DNA from: Hyphomicrobiales bacterium 4NK60-0047b
Lineage (GTDB): Bacteria > Pseudomonadota > Alphaproteobacteria > Rhizobiales > HXMU1428-3
Assembly: GCA_040367435.1 (NCBI GenBank)
Contig: BAABWY010000002.1
Span: 1-64,000, forward strand
Reading direction: 5' to 3'
DNA length: 64,000 nucleotides
Part shown: positions 12,893 through 25,506 of the stretch, piece after piece
How positions within the stretch are numbered: the stretch's first letter is position 1
Layout: each line of letters starts with the position of its first letter
Translations under genes and position numbers: made by a program
The notes under the pieces: generated by a model
What the model was told of the DNA's origin: nothing
Database searches by the model: none
What the model saw: the letters and a program-made list of their open reading frames with translations, nothing else

Positions 12893-13231
12893 ATGACAAA
12901 GATTTACAAAATTATGGACAAAACAACTTGGAATAATGCCAAAGAAATTGGAGAGTTCAAAGGTTCCGAGCATGACCAAAGAGATGGCTTCATACATTTC
13001 TCAACAGAGGAACAATTAGCCGGAACTTTAGCAAAACATTACAAAGGTCAAAACGACCTATTATTATTGGCTTTTTCTGCAAGCGATTTTGGTGAAAATT
13101 TAAAATGGGAGCCCTCAAGAGGTGGTTCCCTATTCCCTCATCTCTATACCCCATTGCCAACCACCTATGTTTTGTGGGAAAAGCCATTAGAAATTACTGA
13201 TGATGGCACTCATATCATTCCAAAAATATAA
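12893..13231 (+). CDS. DUF952 family protein
   Basis: A 112-residue cytosolic protein with the family pattern IYKI...W, DGFIHFSTEEQL...TLAKHYKGQNDLLLL, LKWEPSRGGSLFPHLY and a C-terminal PLPTTYV. Family function is unknown; structures show an ADP-ribosyltransferase-like fold, and no activity is claimed here. It lies 42 bp upstream of pyrD on the same strand, an arrangement common in alphaproteobacteria, so co-transcription is likely. Confidence 0.88.
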   Translation: MTKIYKIMDKTTWNNAKEIGEFKGSEHDQRDGFIHFSTEEQLAGTLAKHYKGQNDLLLLAFSASDFGENLKWEPSRGGSLFPHLYTPLPTTYVLWEKPLEITDDGTHIIPKI

Positions 13232-13273
13232 ATCAGCTTACCTAATAAAGAGCCGCACTAACGGGAGAGAATA

Positions 13274-14374
13274 GTGGTTAACTTATACAAATTAGCGCAA
13301 CCGGCAATCTTCAAAATAGATCCTGAAAAAGCGCATGAGTTAACAATAAAAGCTCTAAAAACAGGACTGGCCTTTGACAGATGCAAACATCGAGACAAAA
13401 GATTAGAACAATATTTATGGGGTCTAAACATATCCAATCCACTTGGTATGGCCCCAGGATTTGACAAAAACGCTGAAGTTGCCAATGAGCTAATTGATTT
13501 AGGCTTTGGGTTTGTTGAAGTCGGCACTCTCACTCCCAAACCTCAAACAGGCAACCCCAAACCTCGAATTTTCAGATTGCAAAAAGATCATGCAGTGATC
13601 AATCGCCTTGGCTTTAACAATGAAGGCCAAGACGCCGCCCTCCTCAAGCTCCAGGGTAGAAAAATGAACGGCATCATTGGCGTAAATATCGGTGCCAATA
13701 AAGAAAGTAACAATCGAATTGAAGATTACTTAAAAGGCTTTCACACTTTCCAAGGTGTCGCTGATTATTTTACCATCAATATCTCATCGCCAAACACACC
13801 AGGACTTCGCGACCTACAAAGCCCCCAAGCCCTAGACGAACTGTTAGGCGGTCTCATGCAAGCACGTACAAACATCATTGATCATGGTGGAAAGATGCGC
13901 CCAATTTTTGTAAAAATCGCCCCGGATATAGAAGATAAAGACCTGGAACCGATCATCTATAAATTACTCGATCATAAAATAGATGCGGTTATTATCTCAA
14001 ACACAACCCTCTCAAGAACAGGCCTAAAAGAACAAAACTTAAAAAACGAAGCAGGTGGTCTGTCAGGTCGGCCCTTATTCAAAAAATCAACCCGTATGCT
14101 AGCCAGAGCTCACCTCATCTCGGAAGGGGCTTTACCAATAATCGGCGTCGGCGGCATTGAGGATGCAGAAACCGCATGGCAAAAACTTGAAGCAGGTGCC
14201 AATCTTATTCAACTCTACAGCGGGATGATCTACCAAGGCCCTGCCATAATAGGCAATATTCTAAAAGGTCTCAGTCAAAGGCTGGATAAAGAAAACCTTC
14301 ATTCATTAGCAAGCATTCGCGGCCGCACAGCCGACCAATGGGCTAATAGCAAGCCAGAGCAAATAATCCATTGA
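13274..14374 (+). CDS. pyrD: Dihydroorotate dehydrogenase (quinone), class 2
   Basis: This enzyme oxidises dihydroorotate to orotate at the inner membrane, passing electrons to ubiquinone (pyrimidine synthesis). At 366 residues it has the class-2 N-terminal amphipathic extension, then NPLGMAPGFDKNAEV, the FMN/substrate motif EVGTLTPKPQTGNPKPRIFRL, NRLGFNNEG, the active-site region FTINISSPNTPGLRDLQ with the catalytic serine, ISNTTLSR, and the FMN phosphate site GVGGIEDAETAWQKLEAGA. The start is GTG at 13274, with GGGAGA just upstream. pyrE lies separately at 26168. Confidence 0.97.
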   Translation: MVNLYKLAQPAIFKIDPEKAHELTIKALKTGLAFDRCKHRDKRLEQYLWGLNISNPLGMAPGFDKNAEVANELIDLGFGFVEVGTLTPKPQTGNPKPRIFRLQKDHAVINRLGFNNEGQDAALLKLQGRKMNGIIGVNIGANKESNNRIEDYLKGFHTFQGVADYFTINISSPNTPGLRDLQSPQALDELLGGLMQARTNIIDHGGKMRPIFVKIAPDIEDKDLEPIIYKLLDHKIDAVIISNTTLSRTGLKEQNLKNEAGGLSGRPLFKKSTRMLARAHLISEGALPIIGVGGIEDAETAWQKLEAGANLIQLYSGMIYQGPAIIGNILKGLSQRLDKENLHSLASIRGRTADQWANSKPEQIIH

Positions 14375-14663: not shown

Positions 14664-16442
14664 ATGCCTAAATCAGCATCAAAAAATCTTCTTCTCCAAA
14701 TAAGAGACTACAACCTATTAAAGACCTTCTTGTTACCACTTTTACTAACCGGTCTGATCATTACATCAACCACGATTTCAGCCAAAGCGGTACAGAAAAG
14801 AGTTGCCCTCGTCATGGGTATCTCAAATTACAACCACGCAAGCCAACTCCCTAACCCTGTGCAAGACGCCACTAAATTAGCCTCTGTCCTAAGTAGTCTT
14901 GGCTTTGACGTAACGCTCCGTACAAATTTAGGCATAAATGACATGCGCTCTGAAGTCCGCAATTTTGCCAATAAAGCAGACACCGCCGAAGTCGCATTGG
15001 TTTACTTTGCTGGACATGGGATCGAAATGTCTGGTAAAAACTATCTAATACCAAATGACGCTGAATTGCGCAGGGATAGAGATTTAGAGCATGAAGCCTT
15101 AACTCTAAACTTGGTCTCTAACGCTATAGAAGGGGCTAAACGTCTTCGCATCATCATGTTAGATGCGTGTCGTAACAACCCATTTTCAGCACAAATGAAA
15201 TTATCAAGCAACAGAACACGCAGCGTCTCACGCGGCCTCGCAGCAGTGGAACCCGTTGGCGACAGTCTTATTGTGTACGCATCTAAACACGGAACAGTTG
15301 CTGAAGACGGTGAAGGCAGCAACAGTCCCTTTGCTGAAGCACTTGTGAAAACTCTCCCCACCCCAGGCCTTGAAATCAGCCTCATGTTTCGCAGGGTGAG
15401 AGACCAAGTTATGAAAGCAACAAACAGACGCCAACAACCCTTTGTTTATGGCTCTATTAGTGGCAAGGAATTTTATTTCAAACAATCAATTAAAATTGAA
15501 AACAAAGTCATCATTAACAACAACTCGCCGCAAATAACATCAGCCTGTAGCATCTGGCCACAAATCGCAACAACAGCGACCAAAGCTCAGGTAGCAGCGT
15601 TCTTATCAGAATGTCATGACGGTATTTTCTACCGTTTGGCTAAAGCCCGCCTCAAAGAACTAAAGGGCAGTGCAGTCGCAACATTAACCACGCCTAAAGT
15701 AGATCTATCAACTCCCAAAAAATCACACGAACCAGCTGACGATCTTTATCGCCGCGCCAAAAACTATCAAAACGGCACAGGCGGATTTAAAAAAGATATG
15801 AAAAAGGCATTATCAATTTATTTGCAAGCTGCAAATAAAGGACATGCAAAGTCGATGACCGATGTTGGCTGGATGAACGAAAATGGTTTTGGCACACCGC
15901 GCAATTATCACGTTGCCCTAGAGTGGTATCAAAAAGCGGCTGACAAAGGTGAAAGCATGGCCATGAATAATCTTGGCTGGATGTACACTAACGGTACAGC
16001 CGTTGAAAAGAACTACACAAAAGCCATCCACTATTACAAAAAGGCCATTGCCCTTGGTGAACCACTTTCAATGACCAATCTTGGCTGGATGTATGAAACA
16101 GGCAAAGGCGTTTCAACCAATTATTACGAAGCCTTTAAATATTATAAACAAGCAGCTGACGCAGGCGACCTTCAAGGCCTCCATAACACGGGCTGGATGT
16201 ATGCAGCAGGGCGCGGCACAAAACAAAATTATAAGAAAGGTGCCGAGGCCGTTTTTAAAGCCATAAGAAAGGGAAATAAATTCTCAAAAGATCAAATGAT
16301 CGGCAATCATACAGTTTGGCCAATTGGCTTTAGAAAAGAATTGCAAAAAATTCTAAAGAATTATGGCTACTACAGTGGGGCAGCTGACGGAAACTATGGC
16401 CCAGGAACTGTAAAAGCCGTTCGTAGAGCCGCCGGCGAGTAA
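14664..16442 (+). CDS. Caspase-like (C14) protease with Sel1 repeats and a peptidoglycan-binding-like tail
   Basis: 592 residues. Residues 18-42 form a hydrophobic signal or anchor ending in ISAKA. Residues 45-280 are a caspase/metacaspase p20-type domain (RVALVMGISNYNHASQLPN) with catalytic His118 in FAGHG and Cys169 in DACRNNP; both catalytic residues are intact. Residues 370-555 hold four to five Sel1/TPR-like repeats with a recurrent GWM core and KAxxYYKKAxxxG. The last 35 residues (LQKILKNYGYYSGAADGNYGPGT) resemble a PG_binding_1 domain. Secretion suggests action in the periplasm or envelope. Substrate unknown. Monocistronic, with a strong terminator. Confidence 0.88.
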   Translation: MPKSASKNLLLQIRDYNLLKTFLLPLLLTGLIITSTTISAKAVQKRVALVMGISNYNHASQLPNPVQDATKLASVLSSLGFDVTLRTNLGINDMRSEVRNFANKADTAEVALVYFAGHGIEMSGKNYLIPNDAELRRDRDLEHEALTLNLVSNAIEGAKRLRIIMLDACRNNPFSAQMKLSSNRTRSVSRGLAAVEPVGDSLIVYASKHGTVAEDGEGSNSPFAEALVKTLPTPGLEISLMFRRVRDQVMKATNRRQQPFVYGSISGKEFYFKQSIKIENKVIINNNSPQITSACSIWPQIATTATKAQVAAFLSECHDGIFYRLAKARLKELKGSAVATLTTPKVDLSTPKKSHEPADDLYRRAKNYQNGTGGFKKDMKKALSIYLQAANKGHAKSMTDVGWMNENGFGTPRNYHVALEWYQKAADKGESMAMNNLGWMYTNGTAVEKNYTKAIHYYKKAIALGEPLSMTNLGWMYETGKGVSTNYYEAFKYYKQAADAGDLQGLHNTGWMYAAGRGTKQNYKKGAEAVFKAIRKGNKFSKDQMIGNHTVWPIGFRKELQKILKNYGYYSGAADGNYGPGTVKAVRRAAGE

Positions 16443-16782: not shown

Positions 16783-17130
16783 ATGACCGTACAAATTTAT
16801 CACAATCCGCGCTGCTCAAAATCAAAACAAGCTCTGTCTTATTTAGAGAAAAAAGGTATCTCTCCAGAAATCATCCTCTATTTAGAAACCCCGCCAACCG
16901 CTGATGAACTAGGATTAACCCTGTTAAAATTAGATTTAAACCCTCGCGATATCATGCGCACAAACGAAAAGCTTTACAAAGAACTTGAGCTACACGACCC
17001 ATCTCTTTCAGATGAAGCATTAATCACAGTGCTATGCGCTCATCCAATTCTAATCGAGCGCCCGATTGTTATAAATGGCGACCATGCTAAACTTGCACGC
17101 CCTGCTGATTTAATAGAAGAAATTTTATAA
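16783..17130 (+). CDS. arsC: ArsC-family arsenate reductase (glutaredoxin type)
   Basis: A 115-residue thioredoxin-fold protein with the ArsC motif HNPRCSKSKQAL at the N-terminus (catalytic Cys in RCSKS), DIMRTNE in the middle and the RPIVI motif near residue 93. It matches glutathione/glutaredoxin-dependent arsenate reductases in length and order. No arsenite efflux gene or ArsR neighbour accompanies it, so a broader YfgD/ArsC-like role is possible. Confidence 0.85.
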   Translation: MTVQIYHNPRCSKSKQALSYLEKKGISPEIILYLETPPTADELGLTLLKLDLNPRDIMRTNEKLYKELELHDPSLSDEALITVLCAHPILIERPIVINGDHAKLARPADLIEEIL

Positions 17131-17249: not shown

Positions 17250-17549
17250 CTAATCCTTCTTAGATTCCTCTCTTCCATTTGGTTTCATAGTTGCAAACAA
17301 ACGCAACACCAACCAAATAGGAAAAACAATAACAGCCCCCAGTAAAAAATAATCACCAATCCAAATAAACGCATCAAAGCCTAAATCATACGCATAACGA
17401 ATAAGCTCGCGAAGCTTATGCACCAAGGCAAAAGCATCTAAATTGAAAGCGGCTAAAACAACCCCCAATACCAGCGAGATAAGCGCAAGACGCAAAATCA
17501 CATATAAGACGGGCCCGCCAAAAAACTTTTCCATAAATCCAACTTTCAT
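17250..17549 (-). CDS. DUF6460 small membrane protein
   Basis: 99 residues with two hydrophobic segments (about 14-36 and 64-86) and the family-like motifs FFGGPVLYVILRLALISLV and DYFLLGAVIVFPIWLVLRL. It is a small inner-membrane protein of unknown function common in alphaproteobacteria. The start may be Met6 (17534) instead of Met1; neither has a strong ribosome-binding site. It is convergent with arsC, and a short GAGTATTT/AAATACTC hairpin directly follows its stop. Confidence 0.7.
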   Translation of the reverse strand: MKVGFMEKFFGGPVLYVILRLALISLVLGVVLAAFNLDAFALVHKLRELIRYAYDLGFDAFIWIGDYFLLGAVIVFPIWLVLRLFATMKPNGREESKKD

Positions 17550-17864
17550 AGTTTAAACTAAGCGATAATTCTAAACCAAAGTAATAATTAAGATAAATAC
17601 CAAAATCGGCCTCTTTACCCCACATCAAATCACACAAAGCAGCTAATTACAGCCCCCATCCATTTCATATGTGCAAAAACACAGAATAAACAAAAGGATT
17701 AATTTCTGTTAACCTTTTCATAAACCGAATCATTTGAGCATAGTGTAAGCAACATAGAAAGCCAATTTGGCCCCCACATTTTTAGCAAGATTAAAATGAG
17801 AACTTTAAGCAAGCTGAAATCGGTCAATTATTACAAAACCAGTTAGATTTTAAGAGCAAAACCA

Positions 17865-18608
17865 ATGGAGACACCCTTACTCCAGCAAGTCATTCATACA
17901 GAAGAACATATCCATCTTTGCGGAAAAGACTTTTATGCCCACCCTACCGGCGCCCTCATTTGGCCTGCCGAGGAAACTTTGGTGGTCGCAGACACATATC
18001 TAAGAAGCGGTTACGTGCTCAATGCTTTAATGGCTGGCGCAAATAAATCTTTTGCAACAAGCATCATAAAATCAATTGAAGGCTTGATAAGCACCCACAA
18101 TATCAAGCAAGTGATAGCTCTTGGCCGCGTATTTCGCAGGTTAGACGACACCTATCACCTGGACACCGAGGATTTAACGCGCCTTTATGCAATTCAGAAA
18201 AAAGTAGATTGGATCTGGGTCGCAGGCCCCATGGCTCGCCAATTGCCAAATCTTGTAGGCGGCATTAGAGCTGCACATTTCTCACACGCTGATATGCACT
18301 TTTGCGCAACCCCAAAGCGATCAGATACAACAAATGAAATCGCAGCCGGCATGTACCCGATGGCACGAACAGAGCCCATAAAGTTCAACCCCATCACAAA
18401 TGAAGAGCTTGAGGGGGAAGGCACAAAACCATGTTTTGTCTCAAACGGAAATCGGTTACTAATGCCAGCCTTCGGTGGAAAATTAGGCGCGAAAAACATC
18501 CTCGGCGATGAGTTTTTACCGCTTTTTGGTTATGACGACCTTCTCATCCAAGTGGTGGACAGCTACAAAACCTACCCCGTCCCCCACCATGCCTTACTTG
18601 CTGGCTAA
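17865..18608 (+). CDS. PdeM-like calcineurin-fold protein lacking metal-binding motifs
   Basis: 247 residues that follow the layout of the ligase-associated endonuclease PdeM (GALIWPAEETLVVAD, a conserved CFVSNGNRLLMPAFGGKLGAKNI tail). Every metallophosphoesterase motif is altered. DLHLEKG reads DTYLRSG, LGDxFHD reads LGRVFRR, GNHD reads GPMA, and GHxHP reads AGMYP. The frame is intact throughout. It therefore looks like a folded but catalytically dead pseudo-enzyme, not a decaying gene. The usual partners (lhr-type helicase, ligase, exonuclease) are absent. Family assignment is from pattern recall; catalytic loss is seen directly. Confidence 0.75.
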   Translation: METPLLQQVIHTEEHIHLCGKDFYAHPTGALIWPAEETLVVADTYLRSGYVLNALMAGANKSFATSIIKSIEGLISTHNIKQVIALGRVFRRLDDTYHLDTEDLTRLYAIQKKVDWIWVAGPMARQLPNLVGGIRAAHFSHADMHFCATPKRSDTTNEIAAGMYPMARTEPIKFNPITNEELEGEGTKPCFVSNGNRLLMPAFGGKLGAKNILGDEFLPLFGYDDLLIQVVDSYKTYPVPHHALLAG

Positions 18609-21463: not shown

Positions 21464-21802
21464 ATGAAACTCATCACAGCAATAATCAAACCTCACAAAC
21501 TAGATACTGTTCGTGAAGCCTTAAGTGCCATTGAGGTTACAGGTCTCACAGTAACTGAGGTTAAAGGTTACGGCCGCCAACGTGGTCAAAGTGAAATTTA
21601 TCGTGGCGCTGAATACAGCGTTAACTTTGTTCCAAAACTCAAACTAGAAATTGCCGTTGAAGCAGCACGGGTTGAACCAATCATTGAAGCGGTCAAAACA
21701 GCTGCTGGTTCTGGCGAAATCGGTGATGGAAAAATCTTCGTAACGTCGCTCGAACAAGCCGTGCGTATCCGCACAGGTGAAACGAACGAAAACGCGCTTT
21801 AA
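21464..21802 (+). CDS. glnK: PII signal-transduction protein GlnK
   Basis: 112 residues. Typical PII sequence: MKLITAIIKPHKLDTVREAL, T-loop with Tyr51 in YRGAEYSVNF (the uridylylation site), and the ATP/2-oxoglutarate-binding GEIGDGKIFV segment. It senses 2-oxoglutarate and ATP/ADP and plugs the ammonium channel made by the next gene, which starts 21 bp downstream. Linkage to amtB identifies it as the GlnK paralogue. A sigma-54 promoter precedes it. Confidence 0.96.
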   Translation: MKLITAIIKPHKLDTVREALSAIEVTGLTVTEVKGYGRQRGQSEIYRGAEYSVNFVPKLKLEIAVEAARVEPIIEAVKTAAGSGEIGDGKIFVTSLEQAVRIRTGETNENAL

Positions 21803-21823
21803 AAAATACAGGATAGTAAAATA

Positions 21824-23125
21824 ATGTCACAGGTAAAAAAACTATTAGCTCTGGGGTTAGCTATTGCGACAGTCGCTATAGCTACTCCAGCATTGGCAGA
21901 GGAAGCAGCAAAAGCGGCTCCAAAAGCTGATCCAGCATTTCTTTTTAACACTCTTTTATTTCTAATTGGCGGCATCCTCGTTGTATGGATGGCGGCCGGT
22001 TTTGCAATGCTGGAAGCCGGCATGGTTCAAACCAAAAACGTTTCCATGCAATGCACTAAAAACATCGCACTTTATGCTATTGCCGGCCTCGTCTTCTGGC
22101 TTGTTGGCTACAACGTCATGTATGAAGGTGTTGATGGTGGCTACATCGGCTCATTCCTTCCAAAAGACATTCCTGTCCCAGACAAAGATTCAGGCGACTA
22201 CGCAACGTCATCTGACTGGTTCTTCCAAATGGCATTCTGTGCAACAGCTGCGTCTATCGTTTCTGGCACATTAGCTGAGCGCATCAAGCTTTGGCCTTTC
22301 CTAATTTTCGTAGCAATCCTTTGCGGCATCATCTACCCAATCGTTGGCGCATGGACTTGGGGCGCAGGCTTCTTGAACAAAATGGGTTTCCTAGATTTTG
22401 CTGGTTCTTCAATCGTTCACTCAACAGGCGGTTGGGCCGCGCTAGCTGGTGCTCTCATTCTCGGTGCTCGTCGTGCTAAGTTCCATGATGGCATCATCAC
22501 ACCATTACCAGGCTCAAACATGCCGCTAGCTACATTAGGTACATTCATCCTATGGCTCGGTTGGTTCGGCTTTAATGGCGCATCACAACTAGCTTTCGCA
22601 ACAAATATTGATGCATCTGCAGTTTCAAACATCTTTGTAAATACAAACTTAGCTGCTGCTGCTGGTGTCCTAGTTGCCATCGTCTTATCACAACTTCTAT
22701 ATGGCAAAGTAGACCTAACATTCGCGCTAAACGGCGCACTAGCCGGTCTTGTAGCTATTACAGCAGAACCTCTAACACCATCTCCAACAATGGCAATCGC
22801 AATTGGTGCAATTGGTGGTGCAATCGTAGTCTTCACTGTTCCACTTCTTGATAAACTAAGAATTGATGACGTGGTTGGCGCGATCCCTGTTCACCTATTT
22901 GCAGGTATCTGGGGCACAATGGCTGTTCCACTAACAAACACTGACGCAAGCTTTGCAACACAGGCAATCGGTGTTGGCGCAATTGGCGCAATGGTGTTCA
23001 CAGTCAGCCTAGTACTTTGGGTAATCCTGAAGTTCACAATCGGCATTCGCTGCACACCAGAACAAGAGCAAAAAGGTCTCGATATCACAGAAATCGGCCT
23101 GGAAGCCTATCCAGAATTCAAATAA
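21824..23125 (+). CDS. amtB: Ammonium transporter AmtB
   Basis: 433 residues with a cleavable signal peptide (about 1-25, ending TPALAEE) and eleven predicted membrane helices. It carries the AmtB signatures WMAAGFAMLEAGMVQTKN, GTLAERIKL, the first pore histidine in HSTGGWAALAGALILGARR, LGWFGFNGAS and the second in PVHLFAGIWGTMAVP. It conducts ammonium across the inner membrane and is gated by GlnK, encoded just upstream in the same operon. A strong terminator at 23160 ends the unit. Confidence 0.96.
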   Translation: MSQVKKLLALGLAIATVAIATPALAEEAAKAAPKADPAFLFNTLLFLIGGILVVWMAAGFAMLEAGMVQTKNVSMQCTKNIALYAIAGLVFWLVGYNVMYEGVDGGYIGSFLPKDIPVPDKDSGDYATSSDWFFQMAFCATAASIVSGTLAERIKLWPFLIFVAILCGIIYPIVGAWTWGAGFLNKMGFLDFAGSSIVHSTGGWAALAGALILGARRAKFHDGIITPLPGSNMPLATLGTFILWLGWFGFNGASQLAFATNIDASAVSNIFVNTNLAAAAGVLVAIVLSQLLYGKVDLTFALNGALAGLVAITAEPLTPSPTMAIAIGAIGGAIVVFTVPLLDKLRIDDVVGAIPVHLFAGIWGTMAVPLTNTDASFATQAIGVGAIGAMVFTVSLVLWVILKFTIGIRCTPEQEQKGLDITEIGLEAYPEFK

Positions 23126-23159
23126 TACATTTGAATTTATGACACCTCCCAAAACAATG

Positions 23160-23192
23160 AATATGGGGACCGCAAGGTCCCCATATTTTTTA
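23160..23192 (+). terminator. Intrinsic terminator of glnK-amtB
   Basis: A 12-bp stem (23160-23171 with 23176-23187) with a GCAA loop, followed by T residues. Confidence 0.93.
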
Positions 23193-23406
23193 TTCCTCCC
23201 TTTTACGCCCACCCTTAAAACACAAACCAACATTTTTAAAAGATGAATAGCGGCCCGATAAACGCAAAATGCAAAAATCACAATATGCACAATATTTATG
23301 CATTGCTTATTTTTTACGCCCAATAAATAGGCAAATACAAAAAGCACAAAAAAAGGGCAAATGCCTAATCTATTGATTCAATTGCTTAAATTTAATGCAC
23401 AGATCT

Positions 23407-23422
23407 TGGCACGCCCTTTGAA
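23407..23422 (+). promoter_or_regulatory. Sigma-54 promoter of the second amtB
   Basis: TGGCAC-N5-TTGAA lies 57 bp before the start at 23479. It closely mirrors the glnK promoter (TGGCACGCCC shared), so both transporters are probably in one nitrogen-limitation regulon. Confidence 0.85.
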
Positions 23423-23478
23423 ACAGCTACATCCTATTGAAATTATAGAAAAAAATATTTTAAGGGGATTCTGGATAG

Positions 23479-24711
23479 ATGAACAATTTATCAACAGGTG
23501 GCGATTTATTCTTCGTCCTAATGGGGGCAATACTTGTTTTTGCCATGCACGCAGGTTTTGCATTCCTGGAAGTAGGAACAGTGCGTCACAAAAATCAGGT
23601 CAATGCTTTGGTCAAAATCCTGGTTGATTTTGCCCTTTCAACAATAGCCTATTTTTTCATTGGCTATTTCATTGCCTACGGCACACACTTCCTAGTAGAT
23701 GCAACAGTCCTATCAGGAACAGCCGAAGGGTCTTCGTTTGAACCACAAGGGCTCACCCTTGTTAAATTTTTCTTCCTGGCAACATTTGCAGCAGCTATCC
23801 CAGCCATTATTTCAGGCGGCATCGCTGAACGAGCAAAGTTCTTACCACAATGCCTAGCAACCCTTGCCCTTGTCTCCCTCATCTATCCTTTCTTTGAAGG
23901 TATGATCTGGAATGGCAATTTTGGTTTAAACGACTGGATGGAAGCAAACCTAGGCGCTCCATTCCATGACTTTGCTGGCTCAATTGTCGTGCATGGGGTC
24001 GGTGGCTGGATTGCCCTAGCAGCAGTTATCTTGCTTGGCGCCAGAGAAGGCCGCTATTCAAAAACTGGCCAAACAATCGGCATCCCACCTTCATCTATCC
24101 CATGGTTAGCACTTGGTTCTTGGCTTCTGTGCGTAGGCTGGTTTGGCTTTAACGTGATGACCGCTGGTTCATTAAAAGCGGCTTCCGGTCTCGTTGCTAT
24201 GAACTCTCTCATGGCTATGGTTGGCGGCATCATCGCTGCATTACTAGCTGGCCGCAATGACCCTGGCTTCGTACATAATGGCGCACTTGCAGGTCTCGTT
24301 GCTGTTTGTGCTGGTTCAGACATCATGCACCCGGTAGGTAGCCTCGTCACAGGTGCCGTAGCTGGTGGGCTATTTGTCATCATGTTTGGATATTGCCAAA
24401 ACAAATTAAAAATCGACGACGTCCTCGGCGTTTGGCCTCTTCACGGCCTATGCGGTCTTTGGGGCGGTATCGCAGCTGGTATCTTCGGCTTAACCTCTCT
24501 TGGCGGCCTTGGCGGCGTGACATTCTTGAGCCAACTATTTGGAAGCTTACTTGGTTGTGCCTACGCATTCATTGCTGGCTTAATTGTTTATGGCATCTTA
24601 AAAGCCGTAACGGGCATTCGCCTCACCAAAGAAGAAGAAATCAAAGGTGCTGACTTAGCTATTCATAAAATCAGCGCAAACCCAGAACAAGAATTTGTTG
24701 GTGGTCGCTAA
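23479..24711 (+). CDS. Second ammonium transporter (Amt family)
   Basis: 410 residues, without the cleavable signal seen in the first AmtB. Signatures are MHAGFAFLEVGTVRHKNQVNALVK, GGIAERAKFL, the pore histidines in HGVGGWIALAAVILLGARE and WPLHGLCGLWGGIAAGI, and VGWFGFNVMTAGS. It is a diverged paralogue of the upstream gene, with its own sigma-54 promoter and terminator and no PII partner. Some such separate Amt proteins act as ammonium sensors or low-affinity backups; here function is inferred only from family. Confidence 0.94.
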   Translation: MNNLSTGGDLFFVLMGAILVFAMHAGFAFLEVGTVRHKNQVNALVKILVDFALSTIAYFFIGYFIAYGTHFLVDATVLSGTAEGSSFEPQGLTLVKFFFLATFAAAIPAIISGGIAERAKFLPQCLATLALVSLIYPFFEGMIWNGNFGLNDWMEANLGAPFHDFAGSIVVHGVGGWIALAAVILLGAREGRYSKTGQTIGIPPSSIPWLALGSWLLCVGWFGFNVMTAGSLKAASGLVAMNSLMAMVGGIIAALLAGRNDPGFVHNGALAGLVAVCAGSDIMHPVGSLVTGAVAGGLFVIMFGYCQNKLKIDDVLGVWPLHGLCGLWGGIAAGIFGLTSLGGLGGVTFLSQLFGSLLGCAYAFIAGLIVYGILKAVTGIRLTKEEEIKGADLAIHKISANPEQEFVGGR

Positions 24712-24732
24712 TCGGACCAACAATCAAAAAAC

Positions 24733-24769
24733 AAAAAAGCCATCTGAAAATTTCAGATGGCTTTTTTCT
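24733..24769. terminator. Bidirectional intrinsic terminator
   Basis: A 17-bp stem (24733-24749 with 24751-24767) flanked by A and T runs, between the convergent amt and MOSC genes. Confidence 0.92.
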
Positions 24770-24795
24770 TATTTAATTACAAATTAAGACATCCA

Positions 24796-25506
24796 TCAAG
24801 TTTCCGGCCCATCTAACCTCGGTGCCCAATCTTCCACATTACCTTTTGTTAATCTCCGCTCCGCCAATCTCCGCCAATTAGGAGCTAAAAAAGGCAAATC
24901 TTGCAACTCACTCAATGCTGCAAAATTTTTTACATCGACATAAAGCAAATTCGTCACACGCCCTAAAGTCCATTCCGGCGCCAGCCGCTCTTTTAAACAC
25001 AAACAGTCTCCAGCACCAACCACCCCCTCCTTAAGCACACGGTAATACCATCCTGTGCGCCCCGTTTTCTGCACTTGCCTCGCCATCAAAGAAACACCAA
25101 AACGTTCATTCAATTTCCAGCAGGGTTGCCGCCCTTGAGAAATTTGAACAACACCGGTTCCTAATTGAAATATATCACCAAGACACACCTCTTTTTCAGT
25201 TAAACCAACCGTAGAAATGTTCTCACCAAAAGCACCAGCCTTTTTCAAAGGTGGCCCACAATAATCAACTCCCTCTTTTAAAAGGTCATCTGTCCAAAAT
25301 TTATAATGATCAAACGGATAATGGTGAATGGCCTTCTCAACCCCGCCATGCAATCGCAGATCACTCTGCTCATCGCCGTTCAAACCAAATTTACCAAAGG
25401 CAAGCAGACCCTTAACAGGAGATTTATCAATAGCACTAGATGCACGGCGCGCTCCCAAAGGCTTAACACGCCCCGTTAAAACAGCTGTTATCTCAAATCG
25501 CTCCAT
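24796..25506 (-). CDS. MOSC-domain protein (YiiM-like)
   Basis: 236 residues from ATG 25506 (GGTG about ten bases upstream; a TTG nine codons earlier is less likely). The MOSC core includes LRLHGGVEKAIHHYP, GAFGENISTVGLTE, the conserved cysteine in QGRQPCWKLNERFG and GRTGWYYRVLKEG. A C-terminal helical tail (APNWRRLAERRL) is the 3-alpha domain of YiiM proteins. YiiM-type proteins bind molybdenum cofactor and reduce N-hydroxylated compounds with a redox partner. No partner gene lies here. Confidence 0.88.
   Translation of the reverse strand: MERFEITAVLTGRVKPLGARRASSAIDKSPVKGLLAFGKFGLNGDEQSDLRLHGGVEKAIHHYPFDHYKFWTDDLLKEGVDYCGPPLKKAGAFGENISTVGLTEKEVCLGDIFQLGTGVVQISQGRQPCWKLNERFGVSLMARQVQKTGRTGWYYRVLKEGVVGAGDCLCLKERLAPEWTLGRVTNLLYVDVKNFAALSELQDLPFLAPNWRRLAERRLTKGNVEDWAPRLDGPET

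Follow-up and report, generated by a model that had tools for sequence, protein, structure and literature searches.

The gene at 17865–18608 of the window (the whole stretch of 64,000 nucleotides analysed here, from Hyphomicrobiales bacterium 4NK60-0047b) encodes a PdeM protein that, judged by its sequence, is a pseudoenzyme, and the metal site of PdeM has been lost also in other lineages of the order. This recurrent loss under continued selection suggests that PdeM has a second, non-cutting job. PdeM, or MPE, is the ligase-associated DNA damage response endonuclease (TIGR04123), with structures from Pseudomonas putida MPE (PDB 6nvo and 6nvp). The MPE is an enzyme with an Mre11-like site (PMC7437997), and in bacteria it is a strongly conserved neighbour of Lhr, found in 276 of 319 genomes (PMC8301817).

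The preliminary description of this DNA had proposed a PdeM-like protein with an intact frame, and the open reading frame indeed covers exactly 17865–18608 on the + strand, with an ATG start and 247 aa. TIGR04123 is the only NCBIfam family matched by the protein (E 2.7e-19), the score of 69.4 bits not reaching the curated cut-off of 150 bits, and nothing relevant was matched in Pfam or PHROGs. A profile built from the protein together with its relatives matched one kind of solved structure, the P. putida nuclease MPE (6nvo/6nvp, E 3e-24). The AlphaFold2 model (mean pLDDT 83.3, pTM 0.83) was superimposed on 6nvp with Z 22.7 and an rmsd of 2.7 over 192 residues; the two MPE entries have Z 22.7 and 22.5 and the next-best structure 9.1. 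Residues 12–239 of the 247 are aligned, and the MPE fold extends over the whole length. By profile, synteny and fold the product is a true PdeM/MPE-fold protein. A second, active PdeM in the window genome is ruled out, since TIGR04123 matches the genome at this gene only.

The former metal motifs and the retained segments are located as follows.

17949..17966 (+): retained core GALIWP, residues 29–34, with G29, A30, L31, W33 and P34 in 12/12 inactivated representatives
17991..18011 (+): former metal motif I, DLHLEKG changed to DTYLRSG, residues 43–49, Asp kept and His replaced by Tyr
18120..18140 (+): former metal motif II, LGDSFHD changed to LGRVFRR, residues 86–92, ligand Asp replaced by Arg
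18225..18239 (+): former metal motif III, GNHDP changed to GPMAR, residues 121–125
18306..18308 (+): Ala148, in place of the ligand His of the RHEP strand
18345..18359 (+): former metal motif V, GHLHP changed to AGMYP, residues 161–165, both His lost
18432..18476 (+): retained segment CFVSNGNRLLMPAFG, residues 190–204, with C190, F191, R197 and P201 in 12/12 inactivated representatives

For reference, 89 aligned sequences, a few of them duplicates, have all nine metal and catalytic positions as D-H-D-N-H-D-H-H-H. The window protein has D-Y-R-P-M-A-A-G-Y, with one position kept (D43) and eight replaced, so that the D-H, D, N-H-D, H and H-H set is no longer present and the Mn-dependent ssDNA endonuclease activity of the family has presumably been lost. 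The motifs had been read correctly before (DTYLRSG at 43–49, LGRVFRR at 86–92, GPMA at 121–124 and AGMYP at 161–165), as had the retained GALIWPAEE and the CF...RLxMPAFG tail; the statement that all metallophosphoesterase motifs are gone stands for eight of the nine positions and has to be amended for the first Asp. The same or near-same replacements are present in all 8 genomes of the genus, indicating that the motif loss is no chance event, and R47, R88, R91, R92 and R125 of the genus correspond to E, D, H, D and P in the relatives.

The gene is found among the following features.

12893..14374 (+): DUF952 protein and pyrD, flank of the ancestral Lhr-PdeM locus
16783..17130 (+): ArsC-family protein (Pfam PF03960)
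17250..17549 (-): small protein of DUF6460 (PF20061, 5.9e-16), to the left of Lhr-PdeM in the ancestral order and so placed in most relatives
17550..17864 (no strand): gap between the DUF6460 and PdeM genes, where the relatives have the Lhr helicase gene of roughly 2.5 kb, by synteny
17865..18608 (+): orphan PdeM pseudo-nuclease

The usual order in the relatives is DUF952, pyrD, DUF6460 (reverse), Lhr, PdeM, a transmembrane protein and a TauE-type transporter. In the window the order DUF952-pyrD-DUF6460-PdeM is intact, with a caspase/Sel1 protein and the ArsC-family protein inserted and Lhr missing. This conserved order indicates that the gene is an ordinary PdeM left in place and no far paralogue, and comparison of sequence and gene order shows it to be the direct in-place descendant (orthologue) of the lhr-pdeM locus. 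An ancient family of inactive paralogues is ruled out, as the inactive genes are located at the ancestral locus and a single clade of them is rejected (AU test). DUF6460 is also ruled out as an obligate partner of PdeM, being present also in genomes without a PdeM match, such as G013, G018, G021 and G027. The ligase (TIGR04120), the exonuclease (TIGR04122) and a true Lhr helicase (TIGR04121) are absent from all 8 genomes of the genus, where the TIGR04121 search gave weak matches to generic helicases only.

The inserted CDS at 14664–16442, between pyrD and the ArsC gene, encodes a protein with a caspase fold (Peptidase_C14), Sel1 repeats and, at the C-terminus, a peptidoglycan-binding domain; it is present in several genomes of the genus and is strongly constrained (dN/dS 0.024–0.042). 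Further downstream, at 21464–25000, GlnK is followed by two tandem AmtB-type ammonium transporters of ordinary appearance.

Compared with the P. putida enzyme, the window protein is thus homologous over its whole length, with the same fold and an orthologous locus marked by pyrD and DUF6460, but it differs in eight of nine metal and catalytic positions and in a score below the curated cut-off, and its genome has neither an Lhr neighbour nor the ligase and the exonuclease. Metallophosphoesterase folds without confirmed catalysis are known from Vps29, a eukaryotic retromer subunit of a subfamily different from PdeM, which uses the fold for protein binding. A dead domain of the calcineurin-like phosphoesterase superfamily is retained as a scaffold in the eukaryotic polymerase B-subunits (PMC4996933), and those of Pol alpha and Pol delta resemble the window protein in superfamily and in having an inactivated nuclease site; the human Pol delta B-subunit (3e0j) is a weak Foldseek match to the model (E 0.01). 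The window protein differs from them in being bacterial, of independent origin, without an OB domain and with no known polymerase partner. As residues 12–239 align to MPE there is no room for an OB domain, and membership in the B-subunit family is ruled out.

The retention of the inactivated PdeM by selection is well supported by sequence comparison within the genus. The dN/dS values (Nei-Gojobori) between the window genome and its three nearest relatives, G003, G002 and G006, are 0.021, 0.042 and 0.034 for pdeM, and for the same pairs 0.026, 0.024 and 0.019 for pyrD a few genes away; the close-pair values of pdeM (0.02–0.045) thus resemble those of its neighbour. All 8 frames are open, with protein identity down to 56% and saturated synonymous divergence. 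Of the 30 columns at the former motifs, 23 are invariant in the genus alignment, compared with 77 of 217 in the rest of the protein (p 0.00075 by block permutation), a pattern unlike decay as the former motif columns, now rich in arginine, are among the most conserved. Missing catalytic residues, an open frame and purifying selection among relatives are what is expected of a pseudoenzyme under selection. The earlier proposal that catalysis was lost under selection while the fold was kept is therefore borne out by the structural model, by the dN/dS values and open frames in the 8 genomes, and by the single copy, as far as sequence and model can tell. Scans for promoters and terminators gave matches no more frequent than chance, and no LexA-type (SOS) boxes were found upstream of inactive PdeMs; as just 2 of 52 Lhr genes have such a box, their absence tells nothing about the inactive forms.

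In 80 named loci and in sampled genomes, loss of the active site was found also in Rhodomicrobium and its relatives (G037, G079, G135, G179, G109, L110 and L115/G159) and in other lineages (G052/L164, G023, G032, L149, L153 and L117). A maximum-likelihood tree made without the motif columns places at least three changes on well supported branches, and a single clade of inactivated forms is rejected (AU, p 0.0054), the long branches of the PdeM tree leaving the exact number of inactivations unsure. The inactive copies have dN/dS values of 0.035–0.088 in Rhodomicrobium and 0.093 for L110/L115. The literature searched contained no account of an inactivated PdeM. An arginine-rich site is ruled out as a common mark of the inactive forms, since it is special to the genus of the window, and for the same reason it cannot reveal a shared role. 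The inactive PdeM of G007 (L008:1501-2421) has an in-frame, low-complexity insert of about 60 residues rich in Gln and Asn, between former motif V and the CF segment.

Among 66 rows, the metal site is kept in 45/45 with an adjoining Lhr and lost in 17/21 with no adjoining Lhr; the four intact PdeMs in the latter group come from genomes with an Lhr at another locus, and no further PdeM was found next to that Lhr. Corrected for kinship, the test of Lhr against ligands has two pairs in favour, none against and three ties, too few pairs for significance on its own. Three genomes with an inactive copy and Lhr (G407, G408 and G411) have an intact PdeM adjoining Lhr. A Rhodomicrobium relative (G109; L227, L231) has an inactive PdeM and, elsewhere, an intact PdeM-Lhr-exonuclease-ligase cluster, which is possibly a later gain, and G037 has a second PdeM with canonical motifs at another place in the genome. 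Rhodomicrobium, too, has an intact PdeM away from the inactive copy. The adjacency counts, together with the intact PdeM in the Lhr-bearing genomes checked, indicate that the metal site is lost when PdeM no longer serves Lhr.

Among 397 genomes of the order PdeM is present in 358 and Lhr in 345, and 39/397 are without PdeM. Thirteen have PdeM and no Lhr: nine are fully inactivated, G248 and G310 have lost ligands, G322 is intact and G339 is broken. The genus g107 contains graded stages, with a 107-residue stump of Lhr and an intact PdeM in G322, no Lhr and one ligand Asp replaced by Val in G248, and no Lhr, six of nine positions changed and an open frame in G310; the relatives G232 and G298 have a complete Lhr and an intact PdeM. 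The dN/dS of G248 and G310 is about 0.14, which partly reflects shared history as the active form. In G339 (G339:C23:41243-41921; L211, L218) both Lhr and PdeM are in pieces in different frames, which shows that plain decay occurs too; this is a true pseudogene pair, with a fate opposite to that of the window gene.

We consider it somewhat probable that a non-nucleolytic role of PdeM, as a binding protein or scaffold, is under selection and outlives the protein's service to Lhr, the metal site possibly being an anion-binding pocket here. The sequences show that an ancestor of the genus lost the helicase (Lhr), the ATP-dependent ligase and the exonuclease that make up the repair module with PdeM, and that PdeM stayed, lost its two-metal nuclease site and has been held by strong purifying selection as a pseudoenzyme. 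The role should then have existed beforehand and reside in regions of the fold other than the metal site; this is the simplest reading of retention in several separate lineages, some of them with a second, intact PdeM beside Lhr. In the genus the acidic and histidine pocket would have been rebuilt with the invariant arginines, and from these residues it probably holds a phosphate-bearing ligand or the backbone of a nucleic acid, free of metal and without cutting, in line with a binding or regulatory role after the loss of catalysis. Such a second role is not universal, as PdeM is gone from many genomes after the loss of Lhr (the 39 without it, and the pseudogene of G339). The fuller claim, an unrecognised selected function of PdeM free of the metal site, with the protein once freed from Lhr repeatedly becoming a dedicated non-cutting factor and the pocket of the genus turning to arginine-based anion binding, is held tentatively, at slightly less than even confidence.

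If there was no prior second role, the freed fold might have been recruited separately in each lineage, for example as a metal-free ligand sensor in the genus of the window. The different replacements at the nine positions (DYRPMAAGY in the window protein, and DKNNDLGGH, DDSDELHGR and DHDPDQYRH elsewhere) fit with this, as does the very long stem branch of the genus, about 2.2 changes per site, with strong constraint thereafter. However, all inactive representatives have kept the same residues outside catalysis, and several retentions after the same loss are less expected if each required a new recruitment, so we regard separate recruitment as rather unlikely. An active enzyme of changed, metal-independent chemistry would use invariant Arg, His, Asp and Tyr as catalytic groups, and D43, Y45, R47, R88, R91, R92, D94, D95 and H98 are indeed invariant in the genus, among its most conserved columns; but the searches matched no known family that has such a motif, and the residues are not shared by other inactive lineages, making this reading improbable. 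Still less credence can be given to a slowly decaying relic, a protein not needed and merely not yet broken. The stages in g107 resemble stepwise decay and both genes are broken in G339, but the close-pair dN/dS in the genus equals that of pyrD, eight frames have stayed open at saturated synonymous divergence, and selection in Rhodomicrobium is likewise purifying; these results oppose a relic in the genus of the window and in Rhodomicrobium, not in G248 and G310.

Under a pre-existing binding or scaffold role, residues outside the metal site are of interest. In 12 inactive representatives, two of them from the genus of the window, the metal residues and the loop 53–67 are mostly lost, and G29, A30, L31, W33, P34, W116, W118, P150, E158, P165, C190, F191, R197, P201, N211 and L244 are kept in 12/12. 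The profile alignment shows no conservation of W116, W118, E158, R197 and N211 in P. putida MPE, indicating that the active nuclease there does not need them, and by this comparison they are the foremost candidates for a second role. It may be that the residues common to every inactive form simply make up the core of the fold.

Two of the inactive PdeMs, L115:5932-6666 and L149:5959-6678, score 157 and 185 bits, above the NCBI cut-off for PdeM, and would therefore be named endonucleases automatically. Descriptions of pseudoenzymes usually concern single ancient cases. In PdeM the active site has been lost repeatedly in one bacterial order, apparently after the protein ceased to serve its partner helicase, with graded stages visible, and these stages together with cultured hosts (Rhodomicrobium) make further functions of PdeM directly testable. 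If the proposed explanation is true, PdeM, which is filed solely as a repair nuclease, would have a separately selected second function.
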